Shown here piece by piece: positions 5,613 through 14,396 of a DNA stretch of 51,566 nt (its first letter is position 1; each line of letters opens with the position of its first letter). The notes under the pieces were generated by a model. That model was not told the DNA's origin. It ran no database searches and saw only the letters and a program-made list of their open reading frames with translations. The translations under genes and the position numbers were made by a program. The stretch lies in assembly GCA_031286285.1 (NCBI GenBank), contig JAITUN010000245.1, positions 1 to 51,566 on the forward strand, written 5' to 3'. Origin of the DNA: Bacteroidales bacterium. Its GTDB lineage: Bacteria; Bacteroidota; Bacteroidia; Bacteroidales; WCHB1-69.

Positions 5613-5696
5613 GCCATGGTGGCGGAATTGGTAGACGCGCCGGTCTCAAAAACCGGTGAGGTAACACTCGTGCCGGTTCGATCCCGGCCCGTGGTA
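5613..5696 (+). tRNA. tRNA-Leu (anticodon CAA)
   Basis: A full class II tRNA folds by hand: acceptor GCCATGG pairs with CCGTGGT (5689-5695), D-stem GCG/CGC, anticodon stem CCGGT/ACCGG with loop CTCAAAA (anticodon CAA at 5647-5649), a long variable arm (GAG...CTC), and T-arm GCCGG-TTCGATC-CCGGC. Discriminator is A5696; CCA is not encoded (CGA follows). The long variable arm and CAA anticodon identify leucine, UUG codons. The acceptor closes with a G1-U72 wobble and contains U5-G68, slightly unusual. The last bases of the gene are the integration site of the mobile element that follows; the insertion leaves the tRNA intact. Confidence 0.95.
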
Positions 5697-5697
5697 C
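5684..5697 (+). repeat. Left attachment core (att) of the integrated element
   Basis: CCGGCCCGTGGTAC, the T-stem/acceptor end of tRNA-Leu, is repeated exactly at 14383-14396. The sequence differs immediately outside the 14 bases on both sides, as expected for site-specific recombination in a tRNA gene. Confidence 0.88.
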
Positions 5698-6110: not shown

Positions 6111-7325
6111 TTATTTAAAAGTTATTTTTCTTTTCGATTGCGTTTCAATTTGATTTTTTATTGGCTTCAAATCAATTTCAAAGTTACAACCTAACCCATC
6201 ACATATTAAAACGTCGTTGTCTTGTATTTTATTATTTACTGGCAGTTGTAACTGTTTAATTTTATTACTGTCAATATCAACATAACCAGGTATTTCGTGT
6301 TTCTTACCACATTTAGGACAAGTAATGTTTAGTACGGTATAATCTATTGTATTTTGTTTATTTGGCATTGGAAAAGGGGCAGGAGCTGGCATATTTGCAT
6401 TTGCAACTGTTGCAGTTCTTGTCAATTGAAAATCTTCCCAAAAATATAATTTGTAATCAGTAGAAAAATCAAAAATCAATCTAATAATAGTTTTGATACG
6501 ATAGACAATATCTGCAAGTAATGGATTTTCATCAATATTTTCAATTATTAACACATCTTTCAAGTCGTCTATTTTTAAAGACCTACCGTGTGTCCGCCAA
6601 TTCATGTGGTCGCATAATTTATTGGCTACGTCTTCTGCTCGCTGTCTTCTCATTTCGGGAGTAACTGCTTGCTGTGTTGTTCGTGTGATAGTCCAATTCT
6701 TGAATTTATATTTTTCCAACCACTCTTTTACAAGGTCTTTGGCAAATTCCAAAGAATTGATAACTCCGTAAATTTCACCAGGAGATATTTGGGCAACCAT
6801 TATAGCGTCAAATGGATTTAATCGCCCGTTGATAGTCGCTTCACTTCTTTTTTGGTCAACCCATTCTTTATAGTCGTGTGCAGAAACTATAGAACGACCA
6901 ATTTTAATTTGTGCATCTATCGGTCCCAAACTCCCTGTTTCACACATATAGATGTTATCCCCCGACAATGCCAAAATAGTTCCTGCACTTTTTGCTTCCC
7001 CTGCAATTACAAAATTAACTTCTTCAAATTTTTTCCGTAGAAATTTTGCAATTTCTTCAGCAGCCTCACCACTACCACCTGGAGTTTCAAGATAAACATC
7101 TATTTGTTTTTTATCGGATTCTCGTAAAATATCTTGAATGGTATAAAAATCATCTTGCATAAGGCTTACATCTATACCTCGTCTTGCTTTGTTAAAATCA
7201 GCAGCATAGACAAAAAGGTTACGATTGGTCAAACCGTTATATTTTTCAATCAATACTTTAAGTTCGGCTTTCAATTCAAGCACCCCCCATCGTTTCGATA
7301 TATATTCATTCAATATACTTGCCAT
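6111..7325 (-). CDS. SDH_sah/ClpP-superfamily serine protease with C-terminal zinc ribbon
   Basis: 404 residues. The core (about 40-180) has the ClpP/crotonase-fold signatures of the SDH_sah (serine dehydrogenase proteinase-like) family: ETPGGSGEAAEEIAKFL (80-96, oxyanion region), AGEAKSAGTILAL (108-120, Ser113 as probable nucleophile) and GSLGPIDAQI (131-140). No signal peptide or transmembrane helix is seen, so it should act in the cytoplasm, unlike SppA. A C-terminal four-cysteine ribbon is visible: CPKC (336-339) and CDGLGC (375-380). It has its own -7 box at 7349-7356 and is separated from the upstream nuclease gene by a terminator. Proteases of this family occur in mobile islands, but the substrate here is unknown. 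Confidence 0.8.
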   Translation of the reverse strand: MASILNEYISKRWGVLELKAELKVLIEKYNGLTNRNLFVYAADFNKARRGIDVSLMQDDFYTIQDILRESDKKQIDVYLETPGGSGEAAEEIAKFLRKKFEEVNFVIAGEAKSAGTILALSGDNIYMCETGSLGPIDAQIKIGRSIVSAHDYKEWVDQKRSEATINGRLNPFDAIMVAQISPGEIYGVINSLEFAKDLVKEWLEKYKFKNWTITRTTQQAVTPEMRRQRAEDVANKLCDHMNWRTHGRSLKIDDLKDVLIIENIDENPLLADIVYRIKTIIRLIFDFSTDYKLYFWEDFQLTRTATVANANMPAPAPFPMPNKQNTIDYTVLNITCPKCGKKHEIPGYVDIDSNKIKQLQLPVNNKIQDNDVLICDGLGCNFEIDLKPIKNQIETQSKRKITFK

Positions 7326-7425: not shown

Positions 7426-8520
7426 TTATTTCACATATTTTTGTATAGCAATAGAAAATTCATTTGAATATTTGAAAATATCATCAACACTATCTATGTC
7501 GTACTTGGTATAACTCCTGTCCTCGTTTTGTATTTCAATTTGTTTCTTTTCAGGATTATTTAAGTATAGACGACACGGACATTGACGCTGTGAGTCATCA
7601 ATCAATATAGAAAAGAATCTTTGAAAATCACGGTGCACAATTCTTTTTTGGTCAATATGGCTTCTTAATATTGATTTAACAATATAAAACCCCTCTATTT
7701 CTTCTTTTGTCGTTATCGTTCCGTCTTCATTAATTGCAACAATTCCTTCCGGCAGTTCTTTTGTTATTGGTGTTGATTTAGCCTCTTCGGTTGGCTCTTT
7801 TGCTTTTTCCTGTTTCTCAATAGCAGATTTCAGCCGTTCTGTTATCATGTCATTTATATACACCACGATAGAATGTTTTGTGAGTTCTGTAAATTGAGCG
7901 AGTATTTTTTCCGTAATTTTTCCATCGTAAATTTCTCTTGCTATCATCTTAACAAATTCAACTGACGGGGTCTCAAATTCTCGTTTCAATATTGCTTTTA
8001 TTTCTCCTGTATATTTAAGTTCACTTGCCGAGTTTATAATACTTTCAACATCAAAATAGGATTTGTGAAACTTTTTCAATTCTTCAATATGCTGTTCCTT
8101 CAAATCTGTTAAATTAACCTCTAAAAATGGCTTTTCATCCATTTTGTTATTCTCTTTTAAATCAGTGTAAAAACGGTAAATAATTCCATTTGTAAGAACG
8201 CCGAATTTTGCAGTTGATACATTGAAATAGCGCAATAATTGGTTATCGTGTAAATCTAATTCCTGCATCCAATGTTTACACTCCATTAAAATAACGGGCT
8301 TTTCATCTTTTAAAATAGCATAGTCTATTTTTTCACCTTTCTTTGTGCCTATATCACATGTAAATTCAGGAACAACTTCAAGTGGGTTAAATACATCGTA
8401 TCCTAATGCTTGAATAAACGGCATTATAAAAGCATTTTTTGTCGCTTCTTCTGTGCCGATATTGTTTTTCAGTTTTTCTATTCTCTCTGATAACTGTTTG
8501 ATTTGGTCTTTTAAGTCCAT
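7426..8520 (-). CDS. PD-(D/E)XK nuclease-like protein with type I restriction HsdR N-terminal domain
   Basis: 364 residues. Residues 1-130 match the HsdR N-terminal (HSDR_N_2) nuclease fold: a helical start, EEATKNAFIMPFIQALGYD (24-42), catalytic KIDYAIL (Asp66), ILMECKHW (Glu80, Lys82) and the QxxxY motif QLLRY (94-98) typical of type I restriction nucleases. It has no helicase motifs, so it is not a full HsdR; similar stand-alone proteins form the COG4748 group. The middle (about 130-230) is helical, followed by a charged linker (AIEKQEKAKEPTEEAK) and a C-terminal domain (about 250-364) I do not recognise. No HsdM or HsdS is nearby. A DNA-targeting defence role is plausible but unproven. 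The upstream 560-base noncoding region is highly structured. Confidence 0.82.
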   Translation of the reverse strand: MDLKDQIKQLSERIEKLKNNIGTEEATKNAFIMPFIQALGYDVFNPLEVVPEFTCDIGTKKGEKIDYAILKDEKPVILMECKHWMQELDLHDNQLLRYFNVSTAKFGVLTNGIIYRFYTDLKENNKMDEKPFLEVNLTDLKEQHIEELKKFHKSYFDVESIINSASELKYTGEIKAILKREFETPSVEFVKMIAREIYDGKITEKILAQFTELTKHSIVVYINDMITERLKSAIEKQEKAKEPTEEAKSTPITKELPEGIVAINEDGTITTKEEIEGFYIVKSILRSHIDQKRIVHRDFQRFFSILIDDSQRQCPCRLYLNNPEKKQIEIQNEDRSYTKYDIDSVDDIFKYSNEFSIAIQKYVK

Positions 8521-8605
8521 AGTTTATTGATTTTTTTGGTTAATAATTTATTGATTTATAATATGTTTAAAGTTTTTAGCACAAATGTCCTAACGCTATG
8601 TAATA

Positions 8606-8801
8606 CAAAACGTTTCCTACTGTTTTGAAAGATTACTGCGAGATATAAGCGCAGACCCCCTATTAGTGCATAGGTATTGCCTTACCTTAATCCAAATAAG
8701 TAAAGTCCGCGCGAAATGCACGATTCACTTATTGCTTGTTGGATTAATAAGAATGGCAATTTTATGCACCCAAACAATAGCAAACGCTATCTAAGATAGC
8801 G
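8606..8801 (-). ncRNA. Candidate structured RNA or origin: four stem-loops including a 104-base nested rod
   Basis: Core rod: GTGCATA (8666-8672) pairs TATGCAC (8763-8769); ATTGCC (8676-8681) pairs GGCAAT (8755-8760); TTAATCCAA (8687-8695) pairs TTGGATTAA (8739-8747); ATAAGT (8696-8701) pairs ACTTAT (8727-8732). The apical stem CGTGC/GCGCG forms only on the minus strand, through a G-U pair, which favours a minus-strand RNA. Flanking hairpins: CAAAAC/GTTTTG (8606-8627), CTGCG/CGCAG (8636-8654) and the perfect CGCTATC-taa-GATAGCG (8785-8801). As an RNA it would be the leader of, or lie just upstream of, the nuclease-like gene. As DNA it could be a replication origin. No known RNA family is recognised. 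Confidence 0.5.
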
Positions 8802-8846
8802 GCGCGAAAATAGCAAATTTTCATCTTTAAAAAAACGACCAAAAAA

Positions 8847-8869: not shown

Positions 8870-9082
8870 ATTCCACATTTATCTGCAAAATTAACGATTA
8901 TCTTTAATAAAAACTCATTGTTCTTTCAGTGTTTTACAATAGAAAGGAGATTAATTTTATGCCAAAATTTGCCGCTTTTCACTTTCTTTTGCCATTTTTG
9001 TCAATTCTTGTATTTTTTTGCCGTTTTTTTTCGTATTTTATACTTTATTTTTCGTTCCAAATTGTCGCAAAATGTCATATTT

Positions 9083-14382: not shown

Positions 14383-14396
14383 CCGGCCCGTGGTAC
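14383..14396 (+). repeat. Right attachment core (att), duplicated 3' end of tRNA-Leu
   Basis: Exact copy of 5684-5697 (CCGGCCCGTGGTAC). The following sequence AACTT and the terminator are the chromosomal continuation of the tRNA gene before insertion. Confidence 0.88.

Follow-up and report, generated by a model that had tools for sequence, protein, structure and literature searches.

A knotted RNA family of Bacteroidota, apparently undescribed, with a probable cis-acting leader upstream of a nuclease-protease cargo operon

Several transcription-terminating riboswitches and attenuators, such as those of the preQ1, fluoride and THF classes, contain a pseudoknotted aptamer, and the put RNA of phage HK022 and the EAR leaders promote read-through. 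In Bacteroidota, where transcription and translation signals are unusual, few leader-RNA regulators are known to us. The FopS sRNAs are 65-70 nt long, use a seed for their action in trans, and have intergenic, antisense or 3' UTR origins (PMC11697453), and Rfp18 has been described as a trans-acting sRNA (PMC9723704). The Bacteroidetes candidates of Fremin and Bhatt (2021) are palindromic and 80-132 bp long, and the parts of that paper cited here mention no pseudoknot (PMC8040213).

The window, i.e. the whole 51,566-nt stretch of DNA analyzed here, contains an integrative element of ~8.7 kb inserted in tRNA-Leu, whose ends are the 14-bp direct repeats CCGGCCCGTGGTAC at 5684-5697 and 14383-14396; the left repeat is the 3' end of the tRNA-Leu (CAA). 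The element encodes an integrase, an HTH protein, an AAA helicase, a DUF6371 primase, an HSDR_N nuclease-like protein (7426..8520, minus strand; PF04313, E 2e-15) and, as the next gene, a ClpP-like SDH-type protease (6111..7325, minus strand; PF01972, E 1.5e-12). A structured RNA on the minus strand (8640..8793) ends 119 nt before the start codon of the nuclease-like gene. With a probability of roughly two in three, we interpret this RNA as a cis-acting 5' leader of the nuclease-protease cargo operon, which belongs to an undescribed Bacteroidota family and works as a transcription attenuator or riboswitch-like element. The window element has no reverse transcriptase gene, so the adjacent reverse transcriptase expected of a retron ncRNA is missing.

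The minus strand of 8600-8810 folds as RNA at -66.1 kcal/mol, compared with -45.2 (sd 4.3) for 200 dinucleotide shuffles, none of which is as low (z -4.9). The strongly folded region with a rod of stems that the initial annotation placed at 8606-8801 is thereby confirmed, and the shuffle control that it called for is significant. Folding energy alone cannot choose the strand or the molecule, because folding the plus strand as DNA gives a stable structure as well (z -4.5). The rod of the window copy consists of the stems GUGCAUA/UAUGCAC, AUUGCC/GGCAAU, AAUCCA/UGGAUU and AAUAAGUGAA/UUUACUUAUU, with hairpins flanking it on both sides. An apical stem, as the same annotation had noted from a G-U pair, and a pairing between the apical GCGCGGAC and the 3' GUCUGCGC can form on the minus strand only, and the family agrees: G-U cells outnumber A-C cells by 84 to 16 among 49 distinct members, which identifies the gene-sense strand as the functional RNA.

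A DNA search of the window's own genome revealed a second, 76% identical copy (C311:18098-18300), which lies in another integrative element before a different gene, encoding a Cro/C1-type HTH protein. Comparison of the two copies shows seven compensatory pairs in P1 and P2, in which both bases differ and still pair, and the mutually complementary apical and 3' arms are identical. The same contig has two minus-strand copies (L006:7041-7203 and L006:10131-10281) flanking four genes: the Cro/C1-type HTH gene, a 172-aa gene, and two short genes that, by sequence look only, resemble an MNT nucleotidyltransferase/HEPN toxin-antitoxin pair. BLAST of the region against 295 genomes of the order recovered the in-genome copy alone, two other matches (L004, L005) being due to chance.

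Covariance models were built from the window and C311 copies (R1) and from 14 copies (R2). Counted as lower bounds because stricter filters were used, R1 matches occur in 13 of 345 genomes of the class and R2 matches (E<=0.01, down to 1e-25) in 69 of 396 Bacteroidota genomes. The window copy matches R2 over positions 1-162 of 162 (107 bits, E 7.9e-23), being itself one of the 14 sequences used to build the model. Up to seven copies are present among the matches listed for a single genome, and an eighth copy in the window's genome lies in L006, which makes up to eight copies per genome. Together with a plasmid (pB3-10 of Rhizosphaericola mali, found by BLAST of a named collection in which no phage record matched), integrative elements and about ten IMG/VR contigs with an R2 match, the family comprises more than 140 copies, a count that overstates independence because the copies are related to each other. 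Pattern scans gave true members, confirmed by R2; exact-motif scans of IMG/VR and a pseudoknot-arm scan of the genome contigs yielded chance matches only. One further R1 match (L081, 890-1003) was rejected as a simple hairpin.

In the specificity control of 12 non-Bacteroidota genomes, one marginal match and one weak R2 match (G1034:C240:452-612, 35 bits) in an Akkermansia-labelled MAG were observed; the latter possibly reflects contamination or rare spread outside the phylum. One viral contig has tandem copies (L104:4445-4597 and L104:4734-4892) between the integrase region and a phage-repressor-like gene. At another locus, an rteR sRNA (L137:39-121; RF04181, 79.6 bits) adjoins the family RNA and a RibD_C/DHFR-like gene; rteR is typical of CTnDOT-like elements, which suggests a CTnDOT-type conjugative element. 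No family member reaches the gathering threshold of any Rfam 15 family and the window copy has no credible match up to E=10, in line with the initial statement that no known RNA family was recognized; 6S RNA was dropped since neither the 6S nor the 6S-Flavo family of Rfam matched. Our literature search found no description of the family, and an unpublished or supplementary one is possible, such as within the Bacteroidetes set of PMC8040213, a source used here in part. Thus, this ~160-nt knotted RNA family, Bacteroidota-wide and absent from Rfam 15, is apparently undescribed.

The common architecture is a 5' hairpin, a rod of four stems (P1-P4) and an apical hairpin, in ~160 nt of gene-sense RNA. 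In 51 copies aligned to R2, 94.5% of the cells of P1-P4 and the apical-to-3' helix are standard pairs, compared with 67.2% for shuffled partners and at most 44.3% for slid ones, with both partners substituted in 26 of the 30 pairs. Since the alignment was fitted to the nested stems, it favors them, while pseudoknot 2 is not part of the model. An independent MAFFT alignment of 14 copies gives the same picture (24 of 32 pairs). The covariation that had been named as a check on the RNA is thus present across the family.

On the minus strand of the window, the elements follow each other from a predicted 5' hairpin AUAGC-GUUU-GCUAU (8777..8790; family consensus AGCGUU(A/C)GCU) inward. P1 is formed by GUGCAUA (8763..8769) and UAUGCAC (8666..8672), with 7 of 8 pairs changing on both sides; P2 by AUUGCC (8755..8760) and GGCAAU (8676..8681), the latter followed by a conserved UACC, with 99.7% of cells paired and 6/6 pairs covarying; P3 by AAUCCA (8740..8745) and UGGAUU (8689..8694), with 86% paired and 5/5 covarying; and P4 by its 5' strand at 8724..8733 and its 3' strand at 8695..8704, with 88.5% paired and 6/6 covarying. 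The most invariant unpaired bases, AAA and UACC, lie opposite each other between P1 and P2.

Two pseudoknots are supported. In pseudoknot 1, a UCUCG-like strand 5' of P1 (UAUUGUUUG in the window, 8771..8779) pairs with a CGAGA-like bulge between P3 and P4 (CAAGCAAUA, 8730..8738); over 131 copies, this complementarity scores 15.2, far above the 11.66 (sd 0.22) of shuffled partners. In pseudoknot 2, the apical strand GCGYGG (window arm at 8705..8712) pairs with the 3' arm (8649..8656) in 99.6% of cells, with a score of 21.1 against 17.6 (sd 0.22). At least four U residues occur within 10 nt after this 3' arm in 121 of 128 copies. The apical strand can also form a local hairpin (GUGC-AUUUC-GCGC in the window, 8709..8721), which is paired in 92% of family cells with weak covariation. 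Because both use the same apical strand, the local hairpin and pseudoknot 2 are mutually exclusive.

In the window copy, the family U-run is represented by a degenerate counterpart, UUAUAU (8643..8648), with only UUAUAUCUCG. Further downstream, the arm AAAACAGUAGGAAAC (8612..8626) can pair with GUUUGCUAUUGUUU (8772-8785) in competition with pseudoknot 1; this pairing, seen in a two-sequence comparison, is limited to the window copy and its sister in the same genome. Given the degenerate U-run and a downstream arm that can compete with pseudoknot 1, the output step of the window copy may differ from that of the family, and the alternative pairing may represent a different output switch.

The position of the RNA relative to genes is strongly biased. 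Among 128 loci, with neighbor genes called by longest open frames rather than taken from curated annotation, 112 have their next downstream gene on the strand of the RNA and 12 on the opposite one (112/124, p=1.7e-21). Upstream genes are unbiased or divergent (50 same strand, 76 opposite). The bias in orientation toward the downstream gene led us to drop the attC-like and REP/MITE readings. Of 127 loci, 84 have a Bacteroidota -7 promoter box (TAnnTTTG) at a distance of 10-80 nt upstream of the RNA, compared with ~13 in shuffles of the whole 130-nt stretch. Where the gap between RNA and gene is 150-450 nt long (47 loci), the box occurs in just 2, fewer than the 5.5 obtained from shuffles. The window has a probable box of this type, TAATTTTG, at 8886..8893 on the minus strand (a motif match only), ~93 nt upstream of the model start. 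Since the box occurs upstream of the RNA and is rare in long gaps, RNA and gene most likely share one promoter, which would make the RNA a 5' leader, although one third of the loci lack the box in the upstream stretch. Thus, both the same-strand 5' leader position and the conserved, covarying structure of a riboswitch or attenuator were found.

These results also bear on the reading as a free-standing, multicopy sRNA that acts in trans on mRNAs or protein and ends in the pseudoknot and U-run. It would account for an own promoter with a terminator-like end and for several copies per genome, and multicopy sRNA families such as FopS do occur in Bacteroides (PMC11697453). Same-strand placement would then reflect insertion history or a processed 5' UTR. 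However, the same-strand bias is strong downstream and missing upstream, long RNA-to-gene gaps lack a promoter, and conservation falls on helices and internal loops, without an evident unpaired seed. We regard this reading as rather unlikely.

The downstream genes are diverse. The 101 downstream proteins include 27 SusC-type TonB receptors, 4 ECF sigma factors, 4 RibD_C-like proteins, 3 response regulators and a single reverse transcriptase (L136), the remainder being mostly unique. The SusC set is dominated by genomes of one family (f173) that is probably Flavobacteriaceae-like. By a rough hydrophobicity criterion, signal-peptide-like N-termini are enriched among the downstream proteins (58 of 107, versus 92 of 435 neighbors). 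Mobile cargo behind the RNA includes the HSDR_N protein of the window, a GmrSD_N protein and a retron-type reverse transcriptase. The GmrSD-type (PF03235) restriction-like gene follows a copy in the window's genome (L142:2817-2981) after 85 nt, and the reverse transcriptase gene, Ec107-like, lies 447 nt downstream of its copy.

The initial annotation had offered two functions for the RNA, a regulator or partner of the nuclease in an RNA-controlled defense module and the DNA origin of the element. An RNA that regulates or guides the HsdR-N nuclease specifically would fit the adjoining nuclease gene in the window, the GmrSD-type gene behind another copy in the same genome, and the L237 locus, where the RNA and an HsdR-N homolog appear to belong to one operon; there the RNA is followed after 34 nt by a lipoprotein gene, which in turn lies upstream of the nuclease gene. 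However, L237 is the only one of 29 loci of homologous nucleases in 295 Bacteroidales genomes with the RNA nearby, the other 28 having none; most copies precede non-nuclease genes, with dozens of unrelated genes following the RNA elsewhere; and PADLOC recognizes neither the nuclease-like nor the protease-like protein. This function is therefore hardly credible. The second proposal, a replication origin, single-strand initiator or transfer origin of the integrative element, draws on the neighboring primase and AAA helicase and on the stability of the region as single-stranded DNA. Against it, none of 29 loci of DUF6371 primase homologs has the RNA, which excludes an element-specific origin; most copies have no adjoining replication gene, and copies occur at chromosomal loci with neither replication nor transfer genes nearby; and the G-U bias fixes the RNA strand. 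Its probability is close to nil. Thus, the RNA has no fixed link to either the nuclease or the replication module. What stands of the earlier interpretation is a structured, probably regulatory minus-strand RNA of ~160-200 nt in line with the genes; the nuclease link and the DNA origin do not.

Judged from sequence, the RNA probably acts as an on/off switch for the following gene. Leader position, fold and mutual exclusivity were computed, and from them we infer termination, switching and a signal. The pseudoknot 2 helix and the U-run would form an intrinsic terminator, at which transcription would stop 40-60 nt short of many genes. The remainder of the RNA would sense a metabolite, a protein or a cellular state and choose between this terminator and the local hairpin; the signal would shift the apical strand to the hairpin and thereby switch the downstream gene. 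Several observations count against a leader switch: in the SusC group, the largest one, the gene starts ~200-400 nt after the RNA; the downstream genes share no common function, unlike those of most metabolite riboswitches; 12 copies have a neighbor on the opposite strand; the promoter box is missing from one third of the loci; covariation of the local apical hairpin is weak; and the U-run of the window copy is poor.

Two other activities of a leader RNA were considered. A processive antitermination RNA, put- or EAR-like, would modify RNA polymerase to read through later terminators. It would be in keeping with the leader position and pseudoknotted fold, the occurrence in phage-like contigs beside a repressor gene, and the long operons behind some copies, yet the RNA ends in its own U-run, the opposite of an antiterminator, and many copies precede single small genes; we find it improbable. 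A self-cleaving ribozyme in the leader would be consistent with two pseudoknots, conserved internal-loop bases and spread with mobile elements. Rfam ribozyme families gave no match, and attenuation accounts better for the U-run at the end and for the leader position on the strand of the gene, which makes self-cleavage very improbable.

Tentatively, and at slightly less than even odds, we propose a phylum-wide, riboswitch-like class of switches, built around a double-pseudoknot core with an apical loop supplying the terminator arm and responsive to some general signal of the cell, which mobile elements, plasmids and phages have adopted for control of their cargo. A Bacteroidota leader in about one sixth of the sampled genomes, often in several copies, would amount to a sizeable unannotated layer of gene control over SusC, ECF sigma factor, secreted protein and mobile cargo genes. 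Should it act as a switch, the ligand would disclose a signal common to host and mobile genes, and the family offers a covariance-defined target for direct testing.

Comparison with described systems places the family as follows. It shares with put and EAR the character of a structured leader RNA in phage or operon 5' regions, and differs in carrying its own U-run, whereas put and EAR promote read-through. Rfp18 and other unassigned flavobacterial RNAs are likewise structured, occur in Flavobacterium and have no Rfam match (PMC9723704); Rfp18 is set apart here by its description as acting in trans. The candidates of Fremin and Bhatt are also RNAs with a predicted structure, of which some lie close to phage integrase or TonB genes and some resemble terminators (PMC8040213); as described in the parts of the paper cited here, they are distinct from a ~160-nt double-pseudoknot RNA, with overlap possible. 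FopS and GibS of Bacteroides are, similarly, multicopy structured Bacteroidota RNAs linked to SusC genes, and FopS has also been seen in a phage (PMC11697453). The family RNA differs from these 65-70 nt RNAs with an R1 seed in its length of ~160 nt, its two pseudoknots and its position before a gene, a distinction drawn on length and architecture and not on the R1 seed sequence. From the terminating riboswitches, it differs in having no Rfam match, in a putative terminator arm whose partner is the apical loop in a long rod, and in unrelated downstream genes; it shares with them the 5' leader position before a same-strand gene, a pseudoknot, helices that are predicted to be mutually exclusive, and, in most copies, a 3' arm followed by a U-run.
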